Below are positions 1 to 25,396 of a DNA stretch of 64,000 nucleotides, piece after piece. This DNA comes from Antedon mediterranea (taxonomy: Eukaryota; Echinodermata; Crinoidea; Comatulida; Antedonidae), in the NCBI RefSeq assembly GCF_964355755.1, contig NC_092680.1:6797001-6861000 (forward strand), read 5' to 3'. The notes beneath the pieces are model-generated. The model was not told the DNA's origin and did not search any database. It saw nothing but the letters and a program-made list of their open reading frames with translations. Each line of letters opens with the position of its first letter. Position 1 is the stretch's first letter. Both the position numbers and the translations under genes were made by a program.

Positions 1-2622
1 AAAGGAAAAGCTTGTACGGAAATAGTCTAGCAAAGTTCTTAATAATATGTCTCAGAAAATAACATATTTATTATACTCTTAATAGGTTGATCCTAGGTCA
101 TAGAATTTATATACATATATGTTTATGTAGAAACTTGGATTTGTGTAATGAAATATAACCAATCGTAAAATACTGTAAATTTATATATATATATTCAAAA
201 TCAAATAGTATATAAATTTCCAAATCCAATGGAAAAGTTTCAGAAAAAGTCAATGATTAAATTGATTGACTGGGAATTGAATTCTACAGTAAATTAACCA
301 GCCAGCCGTCCCAGCTGAGATCTTCCCATCCCCTAGTTATCCATTTAGACTTTAAATGACCTTACCGTGTCATTTATTGATTGAAGGTTGACATTATATT
401 TGTTACATTGATTTAGTAATGTTTATGATGTTATAAAGCTTGACAACAAAATTGAAAACAATTTCTTTATGTTTTTACCTTTATTTCAGCACTTTTAATG
501 CCTACAATATTTTAAACAATCAATTTTAAAGCAAGATAATTGGATGGCATATCATACCAAATAACCTAATAATAATAATAATCAATTTTTCTTTAAAAAA
601 CTTAATCTTTTGTACATTATTTGCATAGGCTATTAATACTACCAAACCTGGAATAAATTTCAATATTCTACTTTTTTGGTTTTAACTATAGACTATACCA
701 TAGCAATATTTATAGTTTACTATAATATCTCTACAACTATACCATCGGATCATTTGCAAAATTCAATATTATATGAAAATAACTTGTAAGTAATTTATTT
801 TTAACAATATTTTTTTATTATTTCTTAGTTGTATCCACTAATTGTATTAATAACAAGTGTTTTTTTTTTCTTTTAAGTTGAGGTTCACTCACCTTTATTT
901 CCATTTCAAAACTGGTTAATAACATTAGTTATGTTATAAAATGCCTAAGTATATCTTTTCCATTTGATTGATTTATGTAGTTAGTAGTGTAAATGTTTTA
1001 ATTTTTTAGGCTTAAGGAAGTTGATTAATGGTGTTTTTTTTACTGTACTGAAATTTAGTGAGTTGACACACAATTTTGATATTGACTAAACCAGAAATGT
1101 AATTAATCTGTGACTAAGCATACATTTAGATATTGAAAAGGCAAATGAATAACATTCTAATCGATTAAAATAATTTTGTTTCAAAAACATTTTATCAATG
1201 ATAAGATACAAATTTTAAATTTAATTTTGAATCAATTATAGGCTAATTCTACAAAACTATACTTGTTTCCTATTTATTCTCTTAATATAATACTTAACAA
1301 GATTTCTTACTTTAAAATATCTCGGTATTCAGTCAAGGTGTCCATGGTGTCCGCAATCCCTCCCCCTAACTTTTAAATGGTTCCATTTTAAGAAGCTACC
1401 ATAACATAATCTACTAATTGTAATGCGTAAAACAAGCAAAGTACTTTTTTGTCTTTTAACTTACACATGTTCTATAGAACCCCTCCTAAACTTACCTCTG
1501 TCCCATTTCAAACAATCCTACCCAATCTACAGTATATAGGCCTGATGCAATTATACACACATAAGCAGATTCTAAATTTAAATACTACAAACTTATTACA
1601 ATAAAATTGTCACTATATACAGAGCACTACAAATGAAATGTGATTTTCCAATTTATTGGCGGCCATTTTGGATTTTGGCCGCCATCTTGAAAAATAAATT
1701 ACGACCAGAGTGGCTCCTAGGCAAAAATCAATTGGTAGGTCCCAACGAAGCTCCATGCAAAATTTGGCGCTTTTGTCCACCGTGTAACGATTTCCTCATT
1801 TTTTGTTGTTAAGCCACCTGACTATACCTTGTTATCAATGTTTACATTTAGAAATTAAAATTTATGATAACATTTGTATGTTGATTATATCAACTAATTG
1901 TAGACAGCAAACTTGATAGGAGTTTTTTCATACGACGACGTTGCGGCCAAACTATTTAACTGGTGGATTAATGTCTTGCACATTATGCACCAGGTCATCT
2001 AAGAAAACTTGTATGTATCATTATTGTCCTCAATTTGCAGGGGTCACCTTGGAATGTCCCTTTTATATTTGACTGGTCACTACACAAATCTGGTTACATC
2101 TTGAGACCATTTTTACCAATGTGAAATGTACTGCATTTGCGACTTTTGACTAGTTAATATGGACACTTTTAGCTTCAGTTTGTATAGCCCTTTATTTAAT
2201 TGTTATGTTGCTATAACGGAATTTATGTTTTGCACCCGAGCTTATAAAGTTTGAAGTTGCAAATGTAATGTTTTCTTGTGCACAGTGTTCTCAAAGAAGT
2301 TCCAATCAATGTCACAGTACAGGTAATCTCAAGAATACTCCAGCTAATCATTTTGATGTGATTGTTTCCAATTTTAAACCCAGAATTGTAGCAAGATGTA
2401 ATACTGCAGTAGCTATTCACTCCTACTTTCCAATGTAGTACTACGCCACTCATATACTATCAACATTAATTATGTTGGTTTCAGTGTTCAGTATCTCACA
2501 GCACTGTTTCAACATCTTTGCTTGGTTTTTTTTATGTAGCAGCCTTCTATTGCTTGGTTATATTTTTGGTTGTTCAATTATTTATTCTTGAGTGAAGAAG
2601 CATCAATGAATGTGGCATGTAT
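1..2622. other. Non-coding flank downstream of the IGFBP-domain gene
   Basis: I see no convincing exon on either strand. The stretch is AT-rich. The part next to 2623 probably includes the 3' UTR of the minus-strand gene, since TTTATT (AATAAA on the minus strand) lies at 2581-2586, but the true poly(A) site cannot be fixed from sequence alone. A repeat-like block with a GGCGGCC/GGCCGCC palindrome lies at about 1638-1800. Confidence 0.5.
1638..1800. repeat. Dispersed-repeat-like block with GGCGGCC palindrome
   Basis: GC-rich island in AT-rich surroundings. A 26-base imperfect palindrome (GGCGGCCATTTT, then TTGGCCGCC) is followed by a moderately GC-rich stretch. It looks like part of a mobile element rather than a gene because no frame stays open. 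The family is not identified. Confidence 0.35.
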
Positions 2623-5600
2623 CTAGTTACCAATACAGTGTGGAACACGACACTGGAATTTTCCATTTTGGAAATCATGGCCCTGAAAGAAAAATGTCCC
2701 AAAATTAGTTATTCAAATAAATGATAATTGAATTAAAAGATTTAAATAATCTACTGTTTGAATTAAACCAGTAGATTTATTTGTAAAAGAATGCACATGC
2801 TGTTGTACCTGTATTTACATAATTGATTATTCATTACTACAGGCTATAATACAGTAGACCTCCTTCCTTTGGAACACCTCTATTCAGGGGACATTGTACT
2901 TTTCTGTGAAACAACCAAGGGGAATATTATTCTTTATAAGGTCAACCCCTATTAACCCCTACGTACCCCTTAAAAAGGGTTATTATTAGTACACTGGTGG
3001 TATATATATATATATATATATGTGTGTTTCATAAACCATTATATACTATTATTTATTTAATTATTGTACAATAAATTCATTGTAATGTTTTTTTTTTCTA
3101 TTTTGTTAATGATGGCCTTGGTTTAAAGTCTACTTCTATTGTGACCACCATCCACATTTATAAATATTTAATGATTTATTAAGAACAATATATGTATTAT
3201 TTGTGGGAACTAATAAACAACAACTGTACATTAATAAATTAGAAAGAAAATATCTCCAAAAAGAAAAAAAAACTTAGGGAATTGTAACAAAAAAAAACCC
3301 CATTTTTGTTAAAGTCATCTTATAGGAGATATTAACCTTTAAATGACAACTAGTTGTCATAAGCAACTAAACATACGGGATTTTCATGACTGTTAGTTTA
3401 TTTCAGTTGAAGGTTGCCCTATATAATAATATAGATATGTTTGCCATTGTGCAGAAACCTGACTTTTTTTTGCTTGATATGAATATTCTACATAGCATTG
3501 TCTTTCATCAGTTTGACTTTTTAAATTACATTTTATTTAGTTAGTTCTGACTCATAGAACTGGCTGTCATGAGGGTCTTTTTATTCCAAAGATCTATTTC
3601 AGTTTGAAAGTTCCTATTATTTTAGCATCATAATTTAATTTAAATTAATTTACAGGTCAAATGTGAATGCATTAAACTGTTAATAAATGTACATTAATCT
3701 GTAATAAATGTACATACCTGGCCATACCCAAATTTACAAATTTCACCCTGAAATTAGTTAACTAACTCCAAATAATTCTTTTAAAATAGATGTCCTTGGT
3801 GTGATTGACAGCCGTTGTAATTTACTACAGGAAATTCCTATTTTGGCTTGTTAGTGTGGTTGTTTATGGGTGGTGAATGTCCATACATCACCTAATTTTT
3901 GTCTTGTTTGACACCTTTCACACTTTCAGTTATGAGTCAAATCACAGAGTAATATTATAATGGTCAAATGGAGAATATTACGGATAGAATTTTAAGTTAG
4001 CTGGACAGGAAGTTTGCGACATGATGGGAAGGTGGGAATGTGCTTAATAACTAAGATGAATTTGTTGGGCTAAAGCTCTGTCTACACTATCAAACTTTAT
4101 GTGACAATAACATGTGACAAAAAAACGTGTGATGTGCCCAAATATGGTAGAGATATGACATCATCGTGTCCATTTATTACATGGCCACATCAAATTTTTT
4201 TGTCACATAAAGTGTGATATTGTAGACAGAGCTTATAACCGGATCCAATTTATGTTCACTTTTAAAATCAAGAAAAGCGATACTTCATTAATTATGATTA
4301 TTTCTTGGTAGTATATTTGTTGTGTTATTGCATTCTTATCTCATTGGTAAAGTCACAAAAGCTTATTAAAAGCTATATCATCAATATGGGCCAAAATATT
4401 AAATTGCGCGCCATTTGTCGGTCTCGTATTTTTGTCAGTTACTGTTTTGAATTTTGTTTATTTTCAAATGTTTTCATTTGACCGGTGTGTTTTTTATTTA
4501 TTTGAACAACAGCTGTGTACATAAATTAAGTTTAGTTATTTCTATACTATTCATTTATAAACCAACCTGATAAGTTTCTGTTGAATTTAGCATGGTTCTA
4601 AACCAAATGATTATGTCCAAATTAAATTTAAGGAATGAATAAAAACCTGTATATTACTCAGTAGGTGCCATATATTTATGCCACAGGCAAAAGTGAGAAA
4701 GAAATATCTCAAATCCCATGATATGGTGTGAACTAAGATATAAAGTACCGTACAATTCTAAATTTATATTTTCACCTGCCATCATTCTTTATTTTCTTCT
4801 CTACATTCTTTCATCTTAACAATAGAAATATTAATGATCAATATAATTAATAATTCATTCATTACTGTATACATACTGTATGTGTTACTGTATACATACT
4901 GTATGTGTTACTGTATACATACTGTAACCTATGTATTATTGTATGCATACTGCATGAAAACAACTGGCATGTAAAAATCAATGAATATTTTAGAAAACAT
5001 CATTTTGACACTATAGTGCAGGAATCTAGTAAAACGTGTTTGAACTTTCAAATGTTTTACAAAAACAATATTTAGGACCATTGTTCATCTACTCAATGTT
5101 ATCTGCAAACATTCTTGAAATCAATTTTCACTTTTAATGAACTCTGGGAACCCTGTTCTAATATTGAGATGTAAAATACCTGTTGTACACCATCAATGGA
5201 ACAATATGTTGAGCTGGATGGTGTAAAGTAGCTGAATTTTTTGTCAACTTATGTTTGAAAAAAGAGAGGAGTGAATTCAGCACCTCTATTTAGACGTCAA
5301 CTTAAAACTTTTCTCACTGTTTTTTGTAGGGCGCCATATAAAAACTTGTATAGAATAAAATAACCAATGTAATAGTGTAAATAGGTGCAACCCAAGTTTA
5401 TCTCATATGAAAATGGTCTCTGATGTTTCTCTCGGTGAATTGATTGTACCAGCAAATGTTATGCTTAACCTAGGTAGGCTCCATTTATTCTGGGCCTGCA
5501 TCAAGAATTTTTTCCTGGCACCTCTGCTAATATAATTAAATATTGCGATTAGGGATTCTATATAGTTTTTTTGGACAGAGCTATGGACTGCTCCAACAGA

Positions 5601-8600
5601 TTAAGGTCATTTAGGCCTACGCTAAATGTTCCGTGTTATACAACAACCTTGGTGCTGAACCCCTATGTTCCCCTGTTCTACCGAGTCAGCTGTTTCCTTC
5701 CAGTTTTTGGTTAATATCTAATATTTTGTCCTTGCAGGTTTCAAACATCAGAATGAGTAATCATGTTTGTTCAAATCCTGTTTTACATAAATTATTAATT
5801 TTCACTTTGATAGTGAAGTATGCCTTAACAGGAATATTTTGTATAGCAAGAAAACTTAAATGTCATAGGATTCTAAACATAAATCTTAGAATATCATGCA
5901 AATTATTTTATTTTTGTATGATCTGGTTCATCATTTTATCTTTTATTTATGATGATGAGTAAAATCAATGAAAGGTGAATAAAATCAAACTTTGAACAGG
6001 CCATTTTGTAGTTATAATAAACTTGATTAATTTCACCAAACAGTAAGTGAATAAAAATAATGATTTCGCTTTATAAAACTTAAAGAAACATGTATATTTA
6101 ACCAAAAACCATGTTAAATAATAATAATTTGTTTAGTTCTAATTTTTGTCAATGTAACATTAAAATGGTCTAAATTTGTTTTCAATTATGTTTTCAGGAA
6201 GACAAAATATCTTTTTTTTTTTACTGATGGAGCCATAGTAGTACAGTAGTAATAAAGAAGTAACAATCTTTGAAAGTGGGGTGGGTTTATGTCCAGATTT
6301 ACTGTAGAGAATACAGTAGTACATACGTATACGGATAAGGTATATAATGATGAATATATAGGCGGAGCATGTTGGAGGATATAAGTATAAGTTCACTTAT
6401 ACCTTAAAACTTAGAAAAGTGAGAATGGTATTACGAATACTAGTAAATTTAATAAAAAAATAATAATATAGGATAATGTAGGTTGCAGACTGACTGGTTT
6501 CTAATAACATGTTGTTTAATCCCTGTGTACTTTGCAATAATCTTCTATAAATAGTTGCCCTTCCTGAAAACTCATGTATAGCTTTTTATTTGCACTTGCC
6601 ATTGCAGATGTATGTCACGTCAGATCGAGTTGAAACACGCTCAAGTTTTCTAATCATTTCAAATATTAAAAACTGGGGTAAAAACCCCCACTGTTTTATA
6701 TCAAAACACAATTTTGTTTCTATTTTTAAATGTTTCCTTTTAATTTAATGTTTAATGTTAAATTAAAAAATAATGAGAAAATGTATGTATCTTGATTGTA
6801 ACGCCTAGTAGGCTTTTTACAATTAGACTACTGTATTATCATTAAGACACCTTTAGTACCCAGTACTAAGCTCTTTCTGTCATTCTTTAGTACATTCTCT
6901 TAATCTTTCAAACATCAACACCCTAGAATTTAAGACCATTCACTTTAAATAATCCTGAAATCAGAATTTCTCAGGAAATCAAAAGGTACTGTTTATACCA
7001 TTAATATACGGTTTATGCATTATGGGCCTAGTGTTTGTAAGAATCAAAAGAAAAGTGTTTTTCAGAACAATTTTTGGTTGTTGCTTTTATAATAAAGACA
7101 AATTGTCTATTATGTAAATGAAGTAAAACAGGTTTCTCATTTAGTGGTCGTAAGTGGTTGGTTGTGTATGTAATGATGTCATTATTATCCACTGAGGTAA
7201 GGTTGAATTATTACTATAATACATTATTTCCATTTCTAAATTCAAGAAAATAATATGGTATCAAATCGATTTTTTTATGTCAATTATAAAGCGGCCGTAA
7301 GTCCAAACGGGAAACAAAACAAAGCAGCTGAAGGAAATGTTACATGAATGTTGATGATACAAATCAGTAATCCTTTTTAGCAATACTAGTATAGTATGCT
7401 TTTTAAAGTGTATTTTATCATGCAAAGTTATAATTATTTAGGCTTGTATGTTTTACTTACAATTAAAAACCAGCACCATAATCAATTAATCAATCAAATA
7501 ATTTGTATTATTGTGTTAAATAGTCAGAAGAAATTACAATTTTTAACTCAACAAAATGGAAAGGTAAGTTGAAAATAAAATTAAAAGATAGTATAGCTAA
7601 AGACCTAAACAAATATTGTAATGTTGCTCAATCCTGACCAAATCAAAACTCTTGGGCTGTCTTCTTAAAAAGTTGCATGCATGAGTGGATTTTTTATAGC
7701 TCCCTCTATTCTTGTGTTGTGATTTCACCCAGTAGTAGTTTTTAGAGGGAAATTCTACCGACCCTGTTTTTACTGTATTTGAGCAACATAACAATTTGTT
7801 TAGGTCTAATGAATCAAATTTAATACAAAAATCATAAACAAAAAATAAAGAGTGTTTCACATACATCGAATCTCACCTCTTCGGAACCTAGACCACATGG
7901 AAACCTCTTTTCACACACATGTTTTTTCAGGCATTTTGCATATTGTCTCATGCATCGAAAATCATCTTTTTTACAGCGTCCACATTCAGGCTCACTTGAG
8001 ACAAACTCGCAGGCCATACAAGAGGTATGTTGGCATTCTCCTTGGCAGTCCATCTTTACGTCCGCATTATTTCTGAAAAAGAAAAGCTTGCAATAAGAAA
8101 TTGGGTTTTTTTTTCAGTTTATTTTTTCTGGTATAATAAAAAAAATTCAGAGCAAGTCTATACCCATAGCCTTTTATTTATAGTATAAAAATGAAAAATA
8201 ACCGTTAAAGTTGGTTTATTTTGCTGTGGGCTAAATAGCCTCACTATTTTGACAATGCAAGCCAAGAAATCCTTAAATGTTTTTGCAAGAAAATGTTTTT
8301 TTAATTTGGGGGCATCAAGATTCCAAGTATACAGACTTTCATTTATATCTCAAATAAAGTACTAATTATTTTAATTCAGCCCCAGTTTTAATATTCAGAT
8401 GAACTAATACCCAGAAGGCTACAATAACATTCTACTTTTAACATTATGATTTAAACAGTCTGCCAATAAAGTTGACAAATTATTGGCTGTTCATAAAGAA
8501 ATAATATGCAGGTTATAATTAGGGCAGTGTTTCACCCTCATACACCTTGTCAAATAAATTAATGTTAGCAGTTTGTTGAGGTCTTTTTCAAATCTAATCA

Positions 8601-11600
8601 TTTCTAATTGATGTTTAACAACAAGACCACCACTATACTGATGCACACATCACACAGAGCTGTTTCCACATCACATACTGAGCACTTTTCGGTAACCCTA
8701 TATGTCACGGTCCGTCACTGTCGTCAAAGGTCTGATTGAACGTGTGATGACCTTGCTATAATCAAAGTTTAAAGGAAAGTTCATTATTGCCAATGCAAAA
8801 TTTAAAGCAGAATCAAGAACCTCTACAATAATATATTCTGTGAAAATCATATTTGCTGGCATAGACTTTTGAAAAATATTATTGTTAAATTGATCAATGA
8901 ATTGTTGGATCACGTACAATTAAGACTTGTAGACGTGACAGCAATGGTGAATTTGTGATTTTGTCCATTAGACATATAAATAAATTTTGATCAAAAACTA
9001 TTGGATTAATCCTAACCCTATTTCACCCAGAAAGAGCGTTACTTTGAAACTACTGTAGTCAACTGGAGGAAACTTGTATGGAAGTTGAAATAAATAAGAT
9101 TAGCTTCCCATGTAGAGTTTGGGAGTTCACCAACCTGACAAAACCATGTAATAGGGTTATTTCAAGCCATGTAATGTGATGATTTACTATTTGAACTATC
9201 TGAGCCCATTCTACCAACAATAAACAGAACTTTTATAGGTTCCTTTATATGACCCTTTTAGTTTGTACGTACTTAAGCAACAAATTATTGTACACAAAAA
9301 AAAAAAGAAGAAAATAGTGTCATCGGATTTAATTTGATACAGTATTATACATTATTTTGCAAGGTTTTAATAATAATGGCTACGCTGAGTAAAAATTGTA
9401 AACAAAATTTATCCTCAAGAAATAATCTTCAGAAAAGCAAACATTATTGACAGGAACTGACAAAATAAACATGCTAGTAGTGCTCAAATGCATAGCAGCT
9501 ACCAAATAAAACTGAAAGGACCCTTAGGCCCAACCACTGATGTGCTATAAAACTAACATTGGTGGTTGAACCATACCCTAAAATTGACCGCTACAGTGTA
9601 CCACCAGCATTGCTTACTGCCTGAGGTGAGAATACAAGTCCACAGCAATGCCAGGGTCAATCTAGACTTGTCAATCACCAGTTTATGTCTGCATAAATGG
9701 TAATAAAAAAGTTCTAAGGTGTTAACCAAGCCATAAGCTTTGATAGGAAACTAGTTATGGATATTGTGACTAGTAATGTATTGAAAAATAGTATAATTGA
9801 AAGATTTGTATTTAGTAATCACTAAATACATTATTTATTTTGATTGAACACTATATATTATATTAGTATTTTGTGTCATGTAGGAAGGTGTTGTTAATGT
9901 ATCTTTTCCTTTTTTTTCTTTGTGCTTAAAATTGAAATTTAAATAAACAACAAAAAATCAAGTAGAAAAAAACAAGGCCTATTTCAAAATGATGGTAACT
10001 GCAGTAAAACATAGAGACTATTAATAGATTGTCTAGTATTTCCACATTAAAAAATCCAACAACACAAATAGAAAATTATGAATTATTATGAGCCTCAATT
10101 TATTGATGTAATCAGAACATTGCCGGATATAAAAAAAAGTTAGAATTGATGTATTGTAAACATCAGTTATTGAGATTGATTGTTTACAGTAATCTCTGCT
10201 GGATATAAAGAGAAATAAATAATATGGTCGATGCATCAAAAGGATGCTACAATAGGTATCTAGGTAGGAGCACGAATGCTGTGTCTAAGAGGTAACCAAT
10301 ATCACTGTGCTGACAGCAATACCGTGTCATTTGCAATCACTTTCTCATTACTGCCTATAGCGTTCTATTTTCTTTGGATGTTGCCCCCTGTGTTGAGAGC
10401 TGCACAGTTTACCACCATTTTTTAATAGACTTGTTTTATTATTTCTAGAACTATATTGTTAATGAATTCATGACTTGCTATATTTTTTTGTCACCTGAAA
10501 TTTTGGTTTGCATGCGTTTTTTCATTGTTGTAAGCCCCATTGTATTTCATTATATATATATATTTTTTTTAATTTTGTGTTTTTAGTTAAATATTATAGT
10601 TCTGACTATATTTTTTCTTCTATTAATTATATTGCTTTTGATGATAATATAAAAGTGTACGTTTAAATAAATGATACTGTAACTATAATAAATCTTTGAA
10701 TTCAAATATCAATATGTTGCCTGTAACCACTCATAGTATACCTGTACAATATATGTTCCATGTTAATGGATTACCTCTCCCTAGAAATTCTTTTTTCATC
10801 ATGCTGTGTTGACTAAATGTTATCATCAAGATCGTTAAGTGCTTTTTGTTTGGATTAGTGTTTGTTCTTTTCATTAACACATTCTATTGGGTGGTATCCA
10901 ACAGACTTGTTCTTTTAAAAATAATATAGGGCACTGAACCTTCCACAATATGGAAATTAATAAAAGCTAACAAAACTCCGTAGAGTAGAACCCTTCCTTT
11001 TAGAACAAACACAGGGAGAACTTCCTTAGAAATATATGTTTCAATACTACAGCCAACCCCCATTCAGGGGACACCCCTATTAAGGGGAAACTTTGTTCTA
11101 CTATATCATAAAATAAAGTAAAAAGGAAAATTATTACCGTAGTTTAGAATTCTAAACATTTGTTGAAAATATTAACAATAATCAAATATCTTTATTTGAA
11201 CTTTATCTAATTAATACACTCTATGTAGAATACTGACAGACTGTTGTTTAATATTTGAATGTGGGGTGATTGAGCATCATATGGCTGTCATTTAACCATT
11301 TTTTTTTTCCGCTTGCCAAAACGTATTCCTCTCAGAAGAAATAGCTTGTTTGTTTGTGTCTAGACCATTATAAACAAAGTATTTAGTATTGAACACCATT
11401 CTAAATCAATTAACAAAAGGAGATATCATCTGTACTTGAATCAATTTGTCAAAATGTTGAGACAACCTTTTGTTTATTAATTATTTCACTTCAATAGAAG
11501 AGCAACCTTACAACCTTGGAAAGAAATTAGAAAATTGATTTAACTACATTACTTGGTGATGGTATGGATTTTAGTTTGTTTTTAGAGTTACAGCAGTATT

Positions 11601-14600
11601 TCTAAAACTTTGTTTCAACAATTCCAGTCCGATTGTTTTTAGCCTTATTGTAAAAAGAAAGTAAACATTGTAGCATTCATACACCCTTTTAACAGTTAAA
11701 GTTACTTGATGGTAAAGTTATGAGTACAGTATTTGTACTACTGTACCAAGGTATCAGTGGTCGTTACTCTTAACTTGACATTTCATGTTACAACTAACAT
11801 TATTGTTTAGCTTTCATTATTGAGTTATTGTGGAAAAACATTTGAATCTAGTAACAACAAATAAATTGTCTCTGTATCCGACATCACATGTTTAAAAAAA
11901 AAATAAAAAAATGATTCCATGAAATACAACATATATTTGTTAGGGTTGGCATTCAAATAAATGTGAATATGGAACCATGTTAGCCTGACCTGTCAGTGAC
12001 CCAAATTGACCTGGGCCCTGGTTGATGGCAATCAAATGCATTTAGAATATTGTACTGTAGTCGAGTTTACAGATTTACATTAATATGTATTAAGTAATTA
12101 TTAGGCTGAGTCTGAGAGGCCTAATAGAATTAAAGGTGGATGTAAATGTTGTATTTCTGTATGCCTTGTCAGTTACTGGCAAAGGTAATTCAAATTTACA
12201 CTTTCAAATTCATCTAAACTAAAAACATATATAATACACTGGTTTAAAATGATTTTGTCCTGATTGTATTCAACAATGACAGACAACACTTGCACGTTGT
12301 TCAGCTTAAATTTCATCAAAACAACGAAAACATCTTTCTGGAGAGGCTAAATGACAAGTGATCAAATTCGCTATGCTTAATAAATATAAAATGTGTCACA
12401 TTACACAATTTAGCCTGCCATGCTTTACCAGCAGGTAAAATGAGGTCTGCTGAGGTACCTGTCTGCCACATACTTAGTGCACGATTGGAAAGAAGTAAAG
12501 TGACAGCCATATGATGCTCAATCACCCCACATTCAAATATTAAACAACAGTCTGTCAGTATTCTACATAGAGTGTATTAATTTAACTAAGTGGGTTAAAT
12601 AGTAATTTATCTAATGCAATTATTTGGAACTGTTAACATCTCTAACATTTAATTGTAAGCAATAACAATAATTTGTGTGTGGTACGAGTTTGTTCTTGTG
12701 AAATTTATCATATCATAATTGCCATCATTAAATATTATTGCATCCTGGTGAATGCTAAATACCTTCACAAGGTCTTGAGGGGGTTTAAGAACTATTTAAT
12801 AATTTCAGGTAATAAGTTTTATTCTTTTAAGTTGTGTTCCCACACTAGATTTTAGTATACATAGAATGGATTTAAACTGAAGGAATCATATTTATGTTCA
12901 CTCGTGTGAATGGTTAACTCTCTTATACCCCCTGTGTCATTAATAATAGAACTTCAATATAACTCCCTCATATTCAAAGTAAAGTTAGACAAAACACAAG
13001 TTTGAATGCAGAAATGCAAATTAAACCAAAACATTTGCTGTGTTTAACTCTGATCAAAGAATGTATATATATTCGCAATAAAAAAAAATGTCTGTAAACC
13101 CAGACTGAGACTCTATTTAATGTGTTACATTCAACTTACATATTCATTATACAAGATACGGTAGTTCATATTCTCAACTTTTTGTGAAAACAATTTTTAA
13201 ACCTGTTATTTCCTCTTATTATGGTGTATTTCTAAATATCAGCTGTCAATTCCAGAGACTTATCTGACTTAGTTTACTTTTAGTCATCTGTTCTAGTAAA
13301 ACCTTAAAGTGAAAACTACTGCAAACCGGGTTTATTTCCTCCCATGTATGGCGTTGTTCCTCATAATATTGCATTCAATTAAAATCTGGGTGATAATATT
13401 AGCGTCAAAAAGTGCAAAGAGATCATTAAATAACCCATTTATAATGACTAATAAATCAACAGTTACAAAAAGATGTTCTGAAGAAAAGTTGAAATATAAA
13501 CTGGGTGTTTACCACACCATAGTAGAATAGTGCAATGACTGCAAATAAACACCCATAACAAATACTAGAAGTTATTTTCACGCTGCTGCTCTAGCCCGCT
13601 ACGTCACACGAGATGACTCATTCATTAGATGAAATCAAGCAGCTTTATAGTACTACACTTTGACATTTTTGTTAAAATGGAAACTCCACTATAATTTATT
13701 GGTACCACCTGTTGAATCCAAAAACGGCTGAGAAAAGAGTCTAACGACAAATCCCAAAGCATTCTGGTATTTATGAGTCCCATGATATAATTCGCTGTCA
13801 GATAATCATTGAATTATTATCAAAACAGTCAGTCCATTGAAGTTTTTGTTTGTAATAGGATACTTGAAGTATCTAGGCGTGATGAAGTGACCCCCAGACT
13901 TGACCTTAGCAATAACAATAAGCGAGCAGCGTTTTTTGTAAGAAATATTCTTGTTTAAATATACACTTAACTATATTTTTAATCTAACTTGTTGGTATGC
14001 TAGTTCAGTCATTTGGGAATAAAGTGCATTAAAAGTTTATAGTTTAAGTGTGATATAGTATTATAAAGAAAGACGTTGTATGATGTTTGCTGAAGTATAA
14101 ATTTGTAATTTTTAGAGGCAAAGAAAGAAATTCTAAATCAGTAAAATAAGACAATTTGCTACAGTAAAGTGTGAAAATGTTGGCCAGCCTAAATTCGAAA
14201 ACTGCATATTAAAATGGTTATCGCCAACATCGACTGAATGATAATGTAATTACATGAATTTATTTAAAAAAAGCTATAAAAAAAACCAAAAAAACAATTA
14301 AATCATCAACATAAATCATCAACATAAAAACAGAATAGTATTATCAAAAGTAAAATTTTGTTTAAATGGAGAAGATCTTTGGTACATGCTATTCTATTAA
14401 ATTATTTCTATTTCAATGTGTAACCCATAACTTGTTTAACTCATTGAATCATCGCCATAAGTATGGCTTATTGGGGTCACACACAATTATTTGTCATGGT
14501 AAATATACCTTTTGGTGAGAAAATGTGTGTAGCACTTTATTGGAGACCTTGAAGATTTGATGCATCCACGTGTTTCAAGATTTCAACTTATTTCCCAATG

Positions 14601-17600
14601 TTAATGCCAATTGTTGGGGTTTCTATAATCTTGTTTCACTTTATCATAATAAGAAAATAATAATATATAATGTAATAATAATTGCCCTTTATCACATAAA
14701 CGAAAGCAATGCAGCAAAGTTTTAAGCAAAAGGGAACGATTTTTTGAACTTTTTTTAATGTTATATATTAATATAAAGTTTGGTAATTTTCCAACTGTAG
14801 GCCTAATTGGTAAAGTTTGAGTGATATTTCCTGTCATCATAAGCACTTGAAAATATCACTTTATATGAATTAAATACTTCAGATGAGATCGATTATTTTA
14901 ATACTACAACAAAATTTGCATCAGATGCAAATAACTTTTATCAAGATATTGCTTAGGCCTAATAGAAATCAAATCAAGATGAGAAATAAAAGTCAGTAAA
15001 AGTGGAAAATGGAATTGTTAATTCCGAAATATTCAAACTTTCAGACTCTAGATTTAGTGGCAGGGGGAAGAAATAAGTGGGCTTTTAAGTAGTTTAATAA
15101 ATGTTTATCCTTCCTTAAAAAGTTGGTTCTCCCAGGGAAGAGTTAAATTAACTCTTCCCTGGTTCTCCGACATACATCAGTGACTTTGAAATCAGTGGCA
15201 AATATCAAGGTATTTATAACATGATACACATTAAACTACAATCGATTTACTACCGTACTGTACTAATTTTCTACAATAAAGAAACAACTTATTCCATGTC
15301 CATGTTTCATTCCTTCCCAGAATCCACTCCATCCGATTCAATAGAAGAATAATGATTTTTAATATTTAGTTTTCATATTCTAAAATTGGTCTATTTAAGT
15401 CCACGACCTTTAAATACAGTCAGGTGGTGTTACTCATGGAAAATATCAACAGAGAATAAAATAATTAACAACAGTACTTGGGAAGTTCTTGATGTATGAT
15501 CAGTTTTCAACCAGTCGGAGCCTTAAGTAAGGACCTTTAGCCATTCTTGTTTCTCTAAGGAAATGTGCCACGGTGTTTCATATTCAGTAGTGTCAAATGG
15601 GATTTAGAATTCATTTGAAAATTGACGCATTTTGAGTGCTTAGGCCTAAGGCTTCTGCGAACTTAATTCAAAGACTGCTATATAAAGATTTCTGAGTCTT
15701 TAAAAATTACCACATACACTAAGAAGTATCAACAAGTTTCAAAATCTCAAATTAATAACCAACATTTTCAAAGGCGCTCAAGACTCTCTCCTGGCACATA
15801 CAACAGTCATCAATCGCTAATTTGAAGAGCATTTAATATAGGTTTTTTTTAGAATTCTACACGATTTTATTTAAAGATTTGTAAATTGAACTATATAATC
15901 AAACCCTGGAGAATACAGTGATAGTGATCGTATGATTTTGTACAGTAGCTTGTACAATCTGATTAAAGTTGACAAGAAACGAACGAACGGTGCGAATATT
16001 TTATTATCACGATACTGAAACTTTCTTAGGTCTTAATATAACAAAACAAAAAGACCCGACGTTACCTTTTTTTTACCAAATATCAGAAACTCTATATCTT
16101 TTTGTTTTTATCACTGAACTAGGCCTACGGGTTTTTTCATTTGAAATCAAGACCGTGACTTCTAAAAAGTGGCAATGAAGCCCAGCATTTTGAATCGGTA
16201 CCGGTATGGGAAATTGATAACATACGATGTGGGGAAGAGTAAAATTACGATTGGTGTATAATTGAGCAATTTTATGAGGACTGAACTTCTTGCAGAGCAG
16301 GCAATAGATATCAGACCTAATTCTTATAACTTATATTTATAAATTAGTATATAGTTCATTTGATATTAATCTTTAAACTAATATTGGTGAACTATAATAA
16401 TATAAATATTAATAGTGATAGCCGTTTTGTATAAAAATCTATTTTATGGTTTATTGTAGGCCTACTGTTTACCATACGATATATGAACGAAGTATGCCGC
16501 AATAACCTTAACCCTATAAACAGAAAGGATGTTTCGTGGTACATGCAACATTTCAAACAAATCATGACATTAAAATAAATACGGTCCAACTAAATGAAGG
16601 ATGGTTGATTGCTAGTTGAACGTGATTTTAACACGGATCGTCATCCAAACACTTTATTCTTTGCCTAACCTGACGTTAACACGCTGTCTCTATTCGCAAT
16701 TTCCTGAATAATAAAGACCTTATGGTTTTATCATGGAACTTTGAATTTAATCTGTCAGTGATTGTGACGTGACAGACGTCAAAAGAAATGTCAATCATTT
16801 GTTATGACTATAATATTAGATACCTCCATGGTACGACGGATAAAGGTAATTTCAGGAAAAACACGAAGTAACACGATTTTTTTATTTCATATCAAAAGAT
16901 AAATGTTATAGTCCCGTATTTTACTTACGAATACGTTTGGTGTTTCATACATTACATTACAAATTTGATATAGAATGAAACAATTTTTAAAACACTTTAC
17001 ATCGAAATTATGTTCTACACATAAACTTGTTGGAAACGAAACGTTTTTAATTTACGCTTTAAACTATCAAAGTTAGTTTCAGACCGAATTGACACTAGTG
17101 TTTTATAGAATATCCACTTTTATTAATTCACTCACTGTCACTCGTACAGCGTTTGTGCTTTAGAACCAATTTAAACAGATGTAAAATTAGTCATGAAATG
17201 TTTCGAGTTTTATTGAAATAATTTGCCACGAATCTTAAGCAACGAACTTATAACGCTTACCTGCTGATTCGGAAGTGGAGAAACCTATGCCCTTCCGTTG
17301 CATTCTCTCGGCCCATATGGGTCTCTTTTGTACACTTTCCTCACCTACCTTTCTTTTGTCAAAACATTTGAAGACATCTGGTAGATTTGAGAAAAACATC
17401 ACATTAATTTGACTGTGTGTACAGTGGTGTGTATAAGTCACCAGCGGGTTCGTTTTGTAAAGGTGTTAAAGCGCGTCAAACGTCATTGAATTAAAATTAA
17501 TAGAAAAGGATTATAAAGAATTCGGCGTGTGTTCGGTCGCGGATGCTGCTGCGCTTTTAATTCAATTTTGATAATTAAACTTCCGATAAAACCCCACATT

Positions 17601-20600
17601 GTATGACAAGCTATTGAATGTGTTGTACAGTATAAGCGAATATTTCGATTCATGTTGAGAAAATGACTACCTGTATCGGTAATTAGGTCTTTCACAGTTT
17701 TGGCGTTGTTTTGCTCAGCATACCTTCTCGGAGGACAATTTATTGTACATTGTCCAGTGACTGAAGCTGTTTCTACCCCCTAGCGACGGTGATATGTCGC
17801 TACTTCCATCTGCACCTGCACTATTATAGACTCAGACTTCAGAATCGGGAAGTAGGCTACATTGGTCCCAAAAAAGTCATGACTTGCAACAGTAAATGGT
17901 TTCATGAATAATGACTTAACAAACACAAAATTGATAGATTTGTCATCTGAAAGCACGCGATGGCACTGTTGCCAACCAGACCTACTTACACTCAATCCAC
18001 ACTCATACAGAATCCATCAACGGTTACACCTGTATATATAGTATGACAGAATCCCTAAAGGGGACACTTTCGGGGCCCAATAATGTGCCCCTTTAGTGTC
18101 CCTGAATATGGGTTGGTCGTAGTTTAAAACAGTATTACCGTACCCTCGTTTGGTACATGGGGAAGTATTTCCTTGCGGTGTCCTAAATGAGTGGTTCTAC
18201 TTCTAGATCGGAAATTATTTTTATTGGAATTTCTCAAAATAAAAAAATCATCATTAATATTTACGTTAAAAAGGTCTAACTATCCTACTACTTGACCAGT
18301 GATATTTATTAAAATTCTGTTCTTCAAGACGGAAAACTCAGTTTTATTAAAATTACAACAATATTTAAAAACATTATATTATTTAAAAAATCTGGAGAAT
18401 TGATTTCAAATTGCATAAATATATATTTATATATATATATATATATAGGTTTATGTTACGATGAATCTAAACAACATAAAAATGACTATTACTAAAAATA
18501 CACGTGAAAAGAAATCGGTAAGAAACGCATGATAACCAAGAATTACTGACATTCGATGATGATTGGTCCGGCATCATGAAAACATTTCATGTGTTCACCT
18601 GCCAGTAATAATATTACTAGACAGCCGTGTAATTTCTAGGCTTTCAAACCTCCGTCCATAATGTAATGTCAACAGAAAGGTGAAATCTGCATGTTAACAC
18701 CGGAATTTAGAAATCTTGGTTTGGTTCCGTTTGTTTTGATTGTAAGTGAGGATTAGTTATTGAAGGAGGGAGAAGGAGAGAGACAATTGAAGGAAACAAT
18801 GGCACTCTACCGGACCGATTTTGGTCGATATAATACCGGTAGTTTAGATCGATTTTTATAATCGAAAGATGGGAATATGGGACTATGTTTATCCTTTTAA
18901 AGGAAAGGAGGGAGAATTGAGGGGATAGAGTATATATTTTACTGCAATCACGAGTGTGAGGATGTATTGAACAAAACCGAGGAGTGTAAGCCTATAATCG
19001 TGGTCTGGCTATGGTTGAAGAATGTTCTATATATTCCACCTAATTAATTACATACACTATCACTCAGTATTCGTCAATTTCCCACACACGGTCGGGAGCA
19101 CGACGTTTCTTATTATCGAATAATCACGGGACAAAATCTTTAGACTAATGAAAAATGATCTGATGTCGTCGTGAAAGCGATCTTCGCCTCCCAAGTTGTT
19201 TTAATGCGTTAAAATTACAACAATTTCCTTCACTGTATTAATATTTAGCGGTATATGATTGAAGTGAAGCTAGGCCCGCGTTGAAGGGCAATTGATGCAT
19301 TGATGATACAGTTGGTAGAGGGGAAAGCTCCCTGACAGTTGGTGACGGGAAACTAGCAGTATCAAGGCCAGTTCAACTAACAATGATGCTGACGGTCGTA
19401 ATATTGTGTTAAACGCTATGTTCATTTTCAAGCATAAGCCTCACATATTTAACGGCATTTTTAAAATTGAATTAATCAGCGTGGCTAATTTACATACAGA
19501 AGGTACATTTTTACCCGGTATTCTCAGAAAAAAAGTGGTTAATGACGTAACAAATATATTGAAAAATACAGATGAGCTGATGGCTTTAAAAGGTCACGTA
19601 TCTATTCAACTTGTCCTGTCGGCTGGTATCAATCAAATATAAAATTAAGGTCGTCTCCCAATACAGGTAAATTATTATACATTCAAGATTTTATAATATA
19701 AGACGGCTGTGTTATGCGAACAACAAAATCTATAACTGGAATTTAATATTAGGAATTCTAAAGATGAGACCTGCTGTATTATAATCTAGGCCTATCATTA
19801 TGTCTTAACTCCTTGCATTTAATATTTTAGGCTGCATCAATTTTAGGCCTATAGTTTGCGGTGAAATTCTGAGAAAGACCGTCTGAGCATTACCAATAGT
19901 AATATTTGTTTTAACTTACAATACTAATTCCAGGAAACTGATTTCATTGATATAAGCACGAATTATTATCGTTCACATTTATTGATACTAATTTTTAGAA
20001 TTCTAAATTAACCACTTTGGTTTGTCTTATTTTCATAAGGTCTTGAAAGTCTACACTGAGTGACGGAGACCTACTAAGGAGGTCGTCACAGCCCTGACAT
20101 AACCACAGTTATGAAACCAAGAATGGTTAGTAGATCGTTATGGGAGTTTGCCCCTGAGGGAGAGAAATCACTGGTACTGAGTTCAATACTCAGGCAGACA
20201 AGCATGATATCCGTTGTCAAAAGCTTTCCTCTTAGGTCCTGGGCTGCTTCAGGTTTCGTATTAACTTTGTATCTAGTGTAAGCCTACAAGTCGGGCCCGT
20301 ACACTTTAATATCAACTTGGGCCTACTGTATGAATGTTTTCATCAATATTCTTTACCATGTAGTGGTGAAATGAGACGTCACGATCAACGTTTCCGAATG
20401 GTTTCATCTCACTGACCATGCAATTCTTTGACCCTGTTTTGTATTACAGTTTCCTAATTGCTCTATCAATGAGTGTATGAAAAAATATATAATTTCACAG
20501 AACTAAAGAATCGCATGGAATTTTTCAAATGTGAATTAGAAATAAGATATCTAATTATTTGTATTAAACATCTTGTGCACGTAAATGTCATATATAGAAC

Positions 20601-23600
20601 TATACAAAATACGGTTAATATTTTTATAATGGAGACCTTAAAAGGATTATTGCCAGTTAATTAAGCACGGTTCAAGTGTTTTAATATGAATCAATTGGTG
20701 ACGAGACAAGAACTGATCACCTTATATTATAGTTATATAATTTTTGTAAGCTATGGCATGTTAAATGCAAAAGGTAGAATTTAACTTCACCTGAAAGTCA
20801 AAATACAAGACAACCCGTCGGCCTCTACTTATCGATCCAGGTAGTATGATTATTTTTGTTTCTTGTGAAAACAAATATATTTCGTAACGGTTTACCTGTA
20901 TTACCGGAAGTCGTTTGTTACCGGCATAATTTGAACATGAAGGAATTTGTTTTGAATTAAAGATTCCAAAATGGATCATCTGTTTATCCTTTAAAACAAA
21001 GGAATTACTGTTTTATATGACAAAATGGAAATACAAATGAAAACTTACATAGCAGAACAAATAGATTTTGGATTTTCTGCGCAAAAATCTGGAGTACACT
21101 TGGGCTGACATCCAGATACTCTGTTCGCTTCGTCTCTCATCTGTAAATCTATTTTGAAAAAAAATAAGTAAATAAATAATCTTTATACTGAATGAGATTA
21201 CAAGCAGTGTTTTCCAACGTGGTTCAGTATAAAACATCAACAATAAATACTGACATTATTGGATAAAAGTAAAACAGTAGGCCTGTCGCACTTTAAGCGT
21301 GGTTCCCACTAGCGACGCAACACAAGGACGTAACGCAACGCAAGTGAATTGACCAATCACAAGCGATGGCTTATTCGCTTGTGATTGCTAAAGCGTGGTT
21401 CAATTCCCACTAGCGACGCAACACAAGGACGTAACGCAACGCAAGTGAATTGACCAATCACAAGCGATGGCTTATTCGCTTGTGATTGCTAACTGTCTAT
21501 AACTTCGCTTGTCATTGGTTAAAACGCTTGCGTTGCGTTTACGTCCTTGCGTTACGTTCTAGTGGGAACCAAGCTTTAAATGTATACCAACGTACGCCAA
21601 CGTTAACAGAAAGAAAAACAAAATATGAAAGAAATATTCACGGTAGACTATAATGTTAATCAAAATAATATTATACTTATTTTCACTTTAGTGATATTCT
21701 TAACTTGTAAATTAATTATAATTTTCATATAAGAATACGTCTAATAGTTATTATCAATTTATTTAGAAAAAGCATTTTCTTTTTAAATAAAATTTGTATG
21801 AACACGGTATAAATATAATTTTGTAAAATTAACCGGAGACCGTTATTTAACGAAAGAAAGTTCCATAATTTGTAAAGGAATTTAAAAGTTAGAATGCCGC
21901 AGTGTTAAAACTATCTGTATTTGTTGTGTGTATTCAATGTTTGTTATTGCCGTCATGCTCAACCAAACTTGATCTTGAAATTATTAACACCAATAAAATT
22001 CGTAATAACAAGGCGTTAACTGATCGTAATTTATGTAAGATGAGATGATGACATCAAATTAAAGTTCAAACTGTGAGCGAGTTGTCGTTTTAAGAGTGGG
22101 AAATGCATTGATGTATGGTATATTAGCCTGGAATTATTATTAAACCGGGGAAAAAGAGAACACAAATGATATTTTTTTGTAATTGTGTCGCGATTTAAAT
22201 AAAGCAGCTGATTTTCAGGTTCAAATTATTTAAAAACCTTTAATTATTCGATGATTTTTAGCCGTAGACCGATATATACAATTAACTTAAAAACGATCTT
22301 ATGCTACCCAATATAAAAGAACAATCTGAACGAAGACACTGACATATTTAAATTAGAACTTATAACAATTTGGATTAGATCAATAAAGTAGGCCTAAAAA
22401 GTAGGCCTAGTCCATAAGAAGACACATACATGGGCAAATCATGAGAAACAACAATTCAATTAATTAATTGTCTGGTGGCAGTTTTCCTAATTTTCATCGT
22501 TTAGGCCCATAGATTAAATAATGTACAGTATATCATCACTGGGTGCAGGTTTGGAGTTTCTCTGTGCCATTACGGTATGTACGTCACAGTAAAATACAGT
22601 TTTAGGCTTATGTTTTTGAAAAGTTGTTTCTATAATTCTAACCAACATTCAAAGCGTCTTTTAAAAAACGTTATAATGTAGAATGTAGGCCTATAACCTT
22701 ATCAATTGGACCTACATAGTATAATGGTACCGGTACTATGATTAAGCACCAACGAAATGTAAGCCTAGTACATTTTGTGAAGGAAATATTTATCAACGGT
22801 TTAGTTTGAGGAAAGAAGGTTTAGCATCTATACGTACAAGTGCTTCTCTGTGATTCATCCTTAATCATAGATATCGCCATGTGTTATAATTCGTTTATGA
22901 AAGTTGAAAATACACTTGTTCTAAAGTATAATTTGTAAAGAAGATACCATGCTGCAATCTTTATAAGTTATACCTGTAATTTAATAGTATAGTGCTGGTG
23001 TGCAATGACATTTCACTTTTTTCAATTAGATTATTTAGATATTAGGTACAGGTATTCGTTTTCCCTATTTCCAAATAACATTTGCAGTGAAACGCATGTT
23101 TTAAATGACAAAACGTTGACAAATTTCAAAATATTGAATTGCAATATAGTCGTAAGCAACACCATACTAAACTATACTTATATAATCATTGGTTTAATCA
23201 TTCCATGTCAATATGTAACTTATTTTTTTTGCACTTAAATAAGTTTGGTTAATTTATAAGTAACTTATTCACTTACTTCTTTTACAGATTCCCCCTTTCA
23301 ATGTGTATGGCTCATTGTTTGGCGTCGTATCTTCTACTTCAACACACTCAAGTCCAGCGTCGCATTTACCCATGTAATTATGTGTACCCCCACATTTTTC
23401 ACCCTCTTGTTTGGCGCACACCGGACAGCAACCACAAACGCCCGTCGTAACACCTCCCGGACACTTCAATTTTGATGCTTTTCTAGGCGAACAATGAACT
23501 TCATTGCAAGGGGGGCACTTTAGTTCCGAAGCTCTAATGTCTCTGTTTTGTATTGCACCGCAGTCCGCTTGCGTAATCCAATTAAATATAAATATGGAAA

Positions 23601-23619
23601 AGATAATGTATACATCCAT
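2623..23619 (-). CDS. Secreted cysteine-rich protein with N-terminal IGFBP domain (4 exons)
   Basis: Coding exons in order of translation: 23619-23277, 21148-21049, 8072-7877 and 2682-2623 (stop TAG). Intron phases 1, 2 and 0 chain without a stop, giving 232 residues. Residues 1-18 form a signal peptide. Residues 35-112 carry 12 cysteines in the order of an insulin-like-growth-factor-binding (IGFBP) N-domain, including VCGCCPVC at 61-68. Known IGFBP domains bind insulin-like peptides or act in the matrix; binding here is inferred. Exons 2-4 add 16 more cysteines in C-x3-C-x4-C blocks (128-137, 157-166), ending at C229. This tail is not the thyroglobulin type-1 domain of vertebrate IGFBPs and I do not recognise it. 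Exon 2 uses the acceptor at 21149-21150; a second AG eight bases into the exon would throw the frame into a cysteine-poor reading. Intron 2 is 13 kb. Exon 1 is the surest part; the joining to exon 4 rests on phase, acceptor and cysteine pattern. Confidence 0.82.
2851..2975. mobile_element. Short MITE-like element, GGGGACA family
   Basis: Begins ACAGTAGACCTCC and contains the CAGGGGACA and AACCCCTATTAA blocks that recur at 10976, 18044, 44625 and 50534. Non-coding and only moderately conserved between copies, so it is best read as an old non-autonomous DNA element. It sits in intron 3 of the IGFBP-domain gene. Confidence 0.5.
4073..4234. mobile_element. Foldback MITE, AAGCTCTGTCTACA family (copy 1)
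   Basis: Terminal inverted repeats: AAGCTCTGTCTACACTATCA at the left and its complement (TGTAGACAGAGCTT) at the right, with internal palindromic blocks (GTGATGTGCCCAAATATGG, then GGCCACATCA). It is about 160 bp with no coding capacity. Six more copies lie at 25714, 26338, 30980, 31560, 31974 and 44954. Confidence 0.85.
4863..4930. repeat. 24-bp tandem repeat, about 2.8 copies
   Basis: The unit ACTGTATACATACTGTATGT plus GTT is repeated almost exactly. Each unit is itself nearly palindromic (GTATAC, TACTGTA). Confidence 0.85.
10976..11102. mobile_element. Short MITE-like element, GGGGACA family
   Basis: Contains TAGAACCCTTCC at the left and CCCCATTCAGGGGACACC followed by TATTAAGGGG at the right, matching the copies at 2851 and 50534. 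Non-coding. Confidence 0.5.
11209..12583. mobile_element. Element bounded by 83-bp perfect inverted repeats
   Basis: Bases 11209-11291 and 12501-12583 are perfect reverse complements over 83 bases, separated by 1.2 kb. This arrangement suggests a non-autonomous terminal-inverted-repeat transposon or an inverted duplication. The interior contains only a chance-like minus-strand frame at 12316-12525 that runs into the right arm. No clear target-site duplication is visible beside the arms. Confidence 0.6.
15132..15162. repeat. 31-bp perfect palindrome
   Basis: Two 15-base arms (CCAGGGAAGAGTTAA and its complement) flank one central A. It would form a cruciform in DNA or a tight hairpin in RNA. 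No other copy was noticed in the window. Confidence 0.85.
18044..18203. mobile_element. Short MITE-like element, GGGGACA family
   Basis: Contains AAAGGGGACACTTTCGGGG, then CCCTGAATATGGGTTGG, then GGTGTCCTAAATGAGTGG, in the same order as the copies at 44625 and 50534. Non-coding. Confidence 0.5.
18421..18447. repeat. TA dinucleotide microsatellite
   Basis: An almost pure (TA)n run in the large intron of the IGFBP-domain gene. A similar run lies near 3002-3022. Confidence 0.8.
21295..21577. mobile_element. Palindromic MITE with duplicated left half
   Basis: Left end AAGCGTGGTTCCCACTAGCG and right end CTAGTGGGAACCAAGCTT are inverted. The left arm (about 110 bp) is present twice in tandem before the right arm. 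A simple copy of the same family, in the opposite orientation, lies at 29851-30022. Both are flanked by TTAA or TAA on at least one side. No coding capacity. Confidence 0.85.
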
Positions 23620-25396
23620 TGTAGAAAAAGTTATGTGCGTTTTCTAAGTAAGTTCAATTAAGTTGAGTTGACGTAATGCACGACGATATTAACAATGTTA
23701 CGTCATAAGTATCATATCAATTATAATATCCGACTGTCAGAAATAAGTATGTCGTGTCCTTAAAATTCAACTTTTTTTAAAGAGAATACAATCAGCAGCA
23801 CACAGTTAAGAATGCAAAATGCAATTCCTAAGAAATGTTATTAACATCAGTAGCCTATATACTACTCAAATTTTGCTGCGTTTTCGATCCTGTCGTGTCC
23901 AAATTTGTTAGTTGCTTGCTATTAAGAGAATGGCTCAATTTAAGTCTCACAATCGAATGATAACGTGTGTGTGGGTCTTCGGGGACCCGGAATTATTCTG
24001 CAAACTTATTTCGATGATCAGTGCGTATCACTGTCTGTCTGTCGGGTTTATTTATGTGTAGGGAAACTCCTGGTCTGTTTAGCTGTCAATGCGAATAAAC
24101 CAATCAGATCACTTGATTTTAGTGAATGCCGTCACTTCTTTAAAAGACGTGGTCAACTAGTGACGTCATAAGGAAGAAGTTTTTGATTGGATGAAACTAC
24201 AGACGTTGGCGAATTTTTCTATCAATAATCACGAATCTAAATATTAGGCCTATACAATATTTACTAAATGCTTGGATTAACTAAACTTAATTGCTACTTA
24301 AATATACGGTTTATACTAACAAAAAGGGTTTATGAAATTCAATGCTATTTAATCAAGGTAGCCTATGTGATTACCGAAAGTCCAATTAGATGCTTCGATA
24401 TAATTATATATTATATAATTAAATTTAAAAAAGTACGAGGAATTAATTTAAAGCAATATAGCAAATATTACAAATTTAAAATTAAATAATAGCGTGATTA
24501 GACTCCTGTTTCGTTTACTTTAGTTCTTAGTCTTATCTTAATCTTAAAATCCATAATAAAACATTTAAGTGTAGTTGTAATGAGGAAAGCAAGAACACAT
24601 TGTCTACATTAAAGCAATGCAATTAATTGCCTTGATTAAAGTATCTGTTAATTTTGGTTGTTCTTAATGGATTGTAAAATAATACCGTACATGTTTTACA
24701 TCTCGATTGTGAATATTGTCTGCTGCCCTCATTAGTAAAAATTACTCAAAACATGCACAACAATCAAATCATCGTCCAAAAAAACCACACATCAACAAAA
24801 ACATTCGCGGCCCGTGACAACAAAAAATCAGAATGGGAAAGCTTATAAAGTAAAACTTTGATAAGCGTAAACATTAATTTGTATAGTTTACTGGCCCTAG
24901 GGCTAGAAATAAACTGTCCTCTATCTTCTATGCTAATAAAAGCCGCTTGCTTGCTAACTAGTAGAGACTCTAGGCTAGGCCTTAGCTAGCTCGATAGACT
25001 CGATAGAGTAGGACCACCACCGCCGGACGGGCCGGGGGCTGGAGCAGAGACGACGGCTAGATAGGCTAGCCTTAGCTAGAGGTATCGGCCTGTCTTGCCT
25101 ACCCTAGGCCTATATAGGGACCAAAATCATTAGTATCGAATTGAGTGGGTAGGCCTTTTCATGTCCAATTTTCCTGCTGTGATGACAATAAACAAGATTG
25201 TGGTATTAAATAGATGGTGGGGTTGTCGGAATCCGTCAAATCAGCCAATAATATTGTGGGTCATGTCGCAGATTTGTTGATTTGACACAAAACACCATGT
25301 AATGGAAGAATTGCGAAGATAATGCTAGTATTGATATAAAAATAGATTATTTAAAAATTATTTTTTTCAGAACATGATTGAATACTGACTAAAAAA
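23620..25396. promoter_or_regulatory. Divergent intergenic region between the IGFBP-domain and FAM227 genes
   Basis: The two genes are transcribed away from each other across 1.8 kb. A CRE-like TTGACGTAA lies near 23670, within about 60 bases of the minus-strand start. A cluster with AACCAATCAG (about 24097), GTGACGTCAT (about 24160) and an inverted CCAAT box (TGATTGGATG, about 24184) follows. A GC-rich block at about 24950-25110, unlike its AT-rich surroundings, is the likely FAM227 promoter or 5' exon. No TATA box is convincing. Confidence 0.45.
25371..25396 (+). promoter_or_regulatory. FAM227 5' leader with a four-codon upstream ORF
   Basis: A good acceptor (TTTTTTTCAG) ends at 25370, implying an upstream non-coding exon. 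In the leader, ATG at 25374 opens a four-codon ORF that stops at 25388, eight bases before the main start at 25397. Such short uORFs usually damp initiation at the next ATG; that effect is inferred. Confidence 0.5.

Follow-up and report, generated by a model that had tools for sequence, protein, structure and literature searches.

A predicted secreted protein in which an IGFBP domain is joined to an unclassified cysteine-rich tail

The window, by which is meant the whole stretch of 64,000 nucleotides that was analysed (C11:6797001-6861000), contains on its minus strand what is probably a real gene, whose four exons (23619-23277, 21148-21049, 8072-7877 and 2682-2623) encode one protein of 232 residues. 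The joins between the exons are predicted from the DNA, and an earlier note on this stretch had probably put the exons together correctly: the four-exon gene that it described, with 232 residues and splice phases of 1, 2 and 0, was reproduced with the same junctions in one open frame of 699 bases including the stop (233 codons). Both cysteine counts given in that note, 12 for an N-terminal IGFBP domain and 16 for the tail behind it, were recovered from the spliced translation. The protein, from an invertebrate animal, would be a probably real variation, if a modest one, within a familiar family, with a well-known growth-factor-binding domain joined to an uncatalogued tail.

The coding part of exon 1 (23277-23619) specifies residues 1-114, comprising a signal-like peptide and the whole IGFBP domain (cysteines 35-112), and ends at a phase-1 donor, gtaagt. 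An in-frame stop lies upstream on the same strand at 23644-23646, its first base 27 bases 5' of the ATG. Exon 2 (21049-21148; 100 bases) encodes NLQMRDEANRVSGCQPKCTPDFCAENPKSICSA, which includes 4 cysteines; it carries the frame from phase 1 to phase 2 between an acceptor, caaaatag, that is weak and a gtaagt donor. Exon 3 (7877-8072; 196 bases) contributes about 65 residues with 10 cysteines, among them those of CQGECQHTSCMACEFVSSEPECGRC, and takes the frame from phase 2 to phase 0 between a strong acceptor and the donor gtgaga. Exon 4 (2623-2682; 60 bases) follows a strong acceptor and encodes GHDFQNGKFQCRVPHCIGN, with 2 cysteines, and the stop codon, from which a poly(A) signal (AATAAA, 2581-2586, minus strand) is separated by 36 bases. 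On inspection by eye, with no model used for scoring, the donors (gtaagt, gtaagt and gtgaga) all come close to consensus, as do two of the three acceptors (tctttttcag and tttctttcag), the weak one being that of exon 2. GC content was 0.40-0.43 in the exons versus 0.30-0.32 in the introns.

The weak exon 2 acceptor favours an account in which part of the gene model is mistaken: the real protein would stop soon after its IGFBP domain, and the exons of the tail would belong to another transcript or isoform. Use of an alternative acceptor, ttacag, 8 bases on (21140) would lead to ...CKRNERRSEQSIWMSAQVYSRFLRRKSKIYLFCYK and a stop, truncating the tail. The intron sizes of 2.1, 13.0 and 5.2 kb point the same way, as do the single-IGFBP-domain proteins known in shrimp from the available part of PMC7866140. 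Against such an account, one open frame runs through the four exons in phases 1, 2 and 0, and none of the lengths of exons 1-3 (343, 100 and 196 bases) is divisible by three, so that skipping exon 2 or exon 3 would destroy the frame. When the introns were scanned, with filters, for extra cysteine-rich exons of compatible phase, introns 1, 2 and 3 yielded 0, 1 and 0 candidates, respectively. In addition, the cysteine density of exon 3 proper (10 cysteines in 65 codons) was seldom reached among 60 copies of the window generated with a first-order Markov model, a simulation that covers exons 1 and 3, exons 2 and 4 being too short: the best 65-codon stretch held 10 cysteines in one copy of the 60 and 11 in none, as compared with 11 in the frame of exon 1 and 11 in that of exon 3. 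A partly wrong model is considered quite improbable.

Intron 1 also contains, at 21289-21582, a structure that resembles a small mobile element, with two identical 89-base copies (21303-21391 and 21404-21492) enclosed by inverted arms of 24 bases and 88% complementarity. Elsewhere in the window, exons of a sodium/calcium exchanger gene were found on the minus strand at 38747-42889 (Pfam Na_Ca_ex, 52.5 and 27.6 bits). The plus strand carries exons of an amiloride-sensitive sodium channel at 60934-61617 (ASC, 80.6 bits) and, at 54670-54912, of a ubiquitin-conjugating enzyme (UQ_con, 28.3 bits).

The sole Pfam family recognised in the protein was IGFBP (PF00219), which matched residues 35-92 with 36.7 bits against a cut-off of 28. 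With the gathering score passed and 12 conserved cysteines present, including the CGCC-x2-C motif, the N-terminal domain is at the sequence level certainly an IGFBP domain, and the earlier assignment is borne out. Sequence matches in the PDB were to IGFBP5 (E 0.0006), IGFBP7 (9zhh, E 0.0007) and spider SIBD-1 (3zxb, E 0.0016). The N-terminus, MDVYIIFSIFIFNWITQA, looks by eye like a hydrophobic signal, and the protein is presumably secreted. The 12 domain cysteines span residues 35-112; a further one, Cys20, lies close to the end of the signal peptide and may or may not survive cleavage. If it is kept, the mature protein would have 29 cysteines, one of which may pair between chains.

The tail consists of 118 residues (115-232) with 16 cysteines (128, 132, 137, 145, 157, 161, 166, 169, 178, 181, 188, 195, 201, 207, 224 and 229) and lies beyond the catalogued families searched. 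Exons 1-4 hold 12 (plus Cys20), 4, 10 and 2 cysteines, respectively, and the even number in every tail exon is weak evidence for self-contained disulphide units. Two related blocks, C128-C137 and C157-C166, had been reported in the tail, a claim that did not withstand shuffling: the alignment score of exon 2 against exon 3 (25) was matched by 71% of 1000 cysteine-preserving shuffles, and a repeated pair of adjacent cysteine spacings of any kind arose in 30% of 50,000 spacing shuffles. What speaks for the related blocks is that the spacing pair actually observed twice, (3,4), recurred in just 2.8% of those 50,000 shuffles, a figure for a pair chosen after the data had been seen. An internal repeat was therefore rejected, shuffled sequences scoring equally well.

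No family was matched when the tail was compared with Pfam at a maximum E value of 10, a scan in which the HMMER filters discard most matches above about 0.1. At that sensitivity, the earlier statement that the tail is neither a thyroglobulin domain nor a recognised module is upheld as far as Pfam families go. Matches of the tail to an NCBIfam arginase (E 0.15) and to a dynein light chain in the PDB (E 0.25) were taken as chance, both being proteins of the wrong cell compartment, and the PDB yielded no credible relative. A search of the whole genome (354.4 Mb in 18 contigs) up to E 10 scored three candidates, all three being the tail's own exons. Pattern searches gave 2 stretches in viral contigs and 17 in prokaryote genomes, none of which was confirmed as a relative; absence from viral and prokaryote sequences is expected of an animal gene. 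Single-sequence AlphaFold2 models, with a mean pLDDT of 47.8 for exon 3 alone (65 residues) and 50.0 for residues 21-114 of exon 1, were too poor for a fold search. No IGFBP with such a tail is described in the open-licence literature searched, as far as its available parts extend. On its sequence, the tail is best regarded as unclassified and probably disulphide-rich, in a gene found once in its genome.

One further reading of these results is that the tail derives from a known module, for instance a furin-like repeat, from which it has diverged strongly, and the spacing C-x4-C-x2-C-x8-C-x2-C in exon 3, which is presumably that of furin-like repeats, is in its favour as a matter of spacing only. 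The furin-like reading of exon 3 (PF00757, PF15913) received no profile support in either the tail scan or the genome search, where exon 3 was absent from the places listed up to E 10 for Furin-like (at least 7) and Furin-like_2 (at least 12). Given also the lack of a Pfam match for the tail within the limits of the scan described above, a diverged known module is held to be unlikely.

The high affinity of IGFBP1-6 for IGF comes from hydrophobic residues; among those that matter are Val49/48, Leu70/69 and Leu74/72 of IGFBP5/IGFBP4, and mutation of the hydrophobic patch in IGFBP3-6 lowers affinity about 1000-fold (PMC5618481, available part). Alignment to IGFBP5 places N81, N102 and T106 at the positions of V49, L70 and L74, so that the hydrophobic IGF patch is not kept; N102 and T106 fall in a loop that is 19 residues long in each of the two proteins, and the pairing of N81 hinges on where a 3-residue gap is put. 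The tyrosine adjoining N81 (Y82) is conserved in the alignment. Because of these replacements, vertebrate-type high-affinity IGF binding is not predicted. Of the insulin-like-peptide binder suggested previously, it is the high-affinity kind that is weakened; for low-affinity IGFBP-related proteins, both looser insulin/IGF binding and ligand-independent roles are reported in the accessible portion of PMC5618481.

From their sequences, insulin-type A-chain exons, and hence candidate ligands, are probably present in the genome. Two weak candidates of this kind, at C2:14970999 and C2:14919831, lie about 51 kb apart and scored 22 and 20.2 bits in the genome search (E 0.10 and 0.34); the translated exons gave 19.1 and 24.2 bits, respectively, against a Pfam cut-off of 23. 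The exon at C2:14970999 has a long basic (lysine/arginine-rich) C-terminal extension, which resembles that described for ambulacrarian IGFs in the part of PMC8286064 that was available. The resemblance makes it plausible that the animal is an echinoderm or a hemichordate; a COX1 search meant to identify it had no match.

The PF00219 profile found three places in the genome, and exon 1 as query added one partial place on C7. The IGFBP-like domain at the latter (C7:19422.4-19424.0 kb) is split over two exons and has 11 cysteines; with its halves joined by hand it scored 26.7 bits, below the Pfam cut-off of 28, and no Kazal_2, VWC or thyroglobulin place was among the matches listed for 20 kb of that locus. 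At all four places, a phase-1 donor, judged by eye, stands right after the last IGFBP cysteine. Downstream of both C10 IGFBP exons and on the same strand are VWC places, about 35 kb from the exon at C10:14233504 (C10:14191931-14198127) and about 10 kb from the second exon (C10:1739422-1742458). Each C10 IGFBP exon and its downstream VWC places would form one gene, a layout that is presumably the CRIM1 or CCN arrangement and, for C10:14233504, presumably of the CRIM1 type. Exons like those of the tail were sought by tblastn near the C10 and C7 IGFBP exons, over nine loci whose downstream reach is about 9-13 kb for the C10 exons and about 11 kb for that on C7, and the best match (E 3.2) was at the level of chance. 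A cysteine-rich frame on C7 at about 19,432,580, with the string CHHTNC, resembles the tail by eye and was set aside at E 14.

None of the partner modules usual in this family was matched in the protein itself. Among the genome places listed, none of at least 45 for thyroglobulin (PF00086) and none of at least 137 for Kazal_2 (PF07648) fell in the window, and none of at least 61 for VWC (PF00093) fell on C11; the nearest thyroglobulin, Kazal_2 or VWC place on C11 among the matches listed is more than 1.6 Mb from the window. With no VWC, Kazal_2 or thyroglobulin module among these matches, the gene stands apart from the three best-known architectures of the IGFBP family.

These comparisons bear on the possibility that the protein is matrix-associated or modulates growth factors and has no insulin-family ligand, its IGFBP domain serving as a structural module only, in the way that CRIM1, CCN proteins and endocan are known to work without insulin-family ligands. 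Such a role is suggested by the replaced IGF-contact residues and by the cysteine spacing at the end of the domain, which at 7-9-5-19 is one residue off that of the CRIM1-like exon at C10:14233504 (7-9-5-20). The missing VWC, Kazal and thyroglobulin matches, in the protein and among the places listed for the window, indicate that the protein does not belong to the CRIM1 or CCN proteins, and a role of this kind is regarded as possible, if somewhat doubtful.

The explanation tentatively put forward, which may quite possibly be correct, is that the gene encodes a secreted IGFBP-related protein that is a low-affinity insulin-family binder or a matrix factor, with the tail as second contact or anchor. 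The protein would act extracellularly, where its IGFBP domain may bind a peptide at low or moderate affinity, the ligand plausibly being one of the animal's own insulin/IGF-type peptides. The disulphide-bonded tail, standing where other members of the family have a thyroglobulin or immunoglobulin domain, would make a second contact or hold the protein to the matrix with the help of a basic segment at residues 176-210 (pI 9.3; 10 lysines and arginines versus 4 aspartates and glutamates). Since the tail as a whole is about neutral (pI 7.55), the anchoring idea is founded on that one short segment. A bolder proposal, which seems improbable, is that the tail represents an extracellular domain not yet described, which replaced the thyroglobulin or Ig domain as the ligand-clamping second half of an IGF-binding protein in an invertebrate deuterostome and so would be an independent solution to IGF sequestration. 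Should the tail prove to be a true domain, the IGFBP superfamily would gain a new architecture, and the protein would be a candidate for regulating insulin/IGF signalling in an invertebrate animal, possibly an echinoderm or hemichordate.

Within the IGFBP superfamily, the N domain is common to the members and the C domain differs most (PMC5618481, in part); an IGFBP-like gene has been named in sea urchin (PMC7280269, in part), and KAZALD genes are reported throughout deuterostomes, with echinoderms among those searched (PMC12955574, in part). Vertebrate IGFBP1-6 share with the present protein a 12-cysteine N-terminal domain with CGCC-x2-C, a signal-like start and a similar size, theirs being 240-300 residues according to the available part of PMC7866140. 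They differ in having a 6-cysteine thyroglobulin type-1 C-domain where a 16-cysteine tail is present here, and in the IGF-contact hydrophobics that are replaced here. Spider SIBD-1 (3zxb, E 0.0016) and shrimp LvIGFBP2/3 are likewise alike in their IGFBP domain, being short proteins with one such domain (PMC7866140, in part), to which a tail of 118 cysteine-rich residues is added here. IGFBP7, KAZALD and decapod IGFBP-rP1, which combine IGFBP, Kazal and Ig domains, also share the IGFBP domain (9zhh, E 0.0007), whereas the present protein has no Kazal or Ig match; HTRA1 differs similarly, there being no Kazal module after the IGFBP domain here. With CRIM1 and CCN proteins (IGFBP followed by VWC and other modules), the protein has in common an IGFBP exon with a phase-1 donor and a cysteine spacing near that of the CRIM1-like C10 gene, in contrast to which it has no VWC or TSP1 match. 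Endocan (ESM1) consists of an IGFBP domain and then a short EGF-like cysteine-rich part with a glycosaminoglycan chain and, by this description, resembles the present protein in carrying a further cysteine-rich part behind its IGFBP domain.
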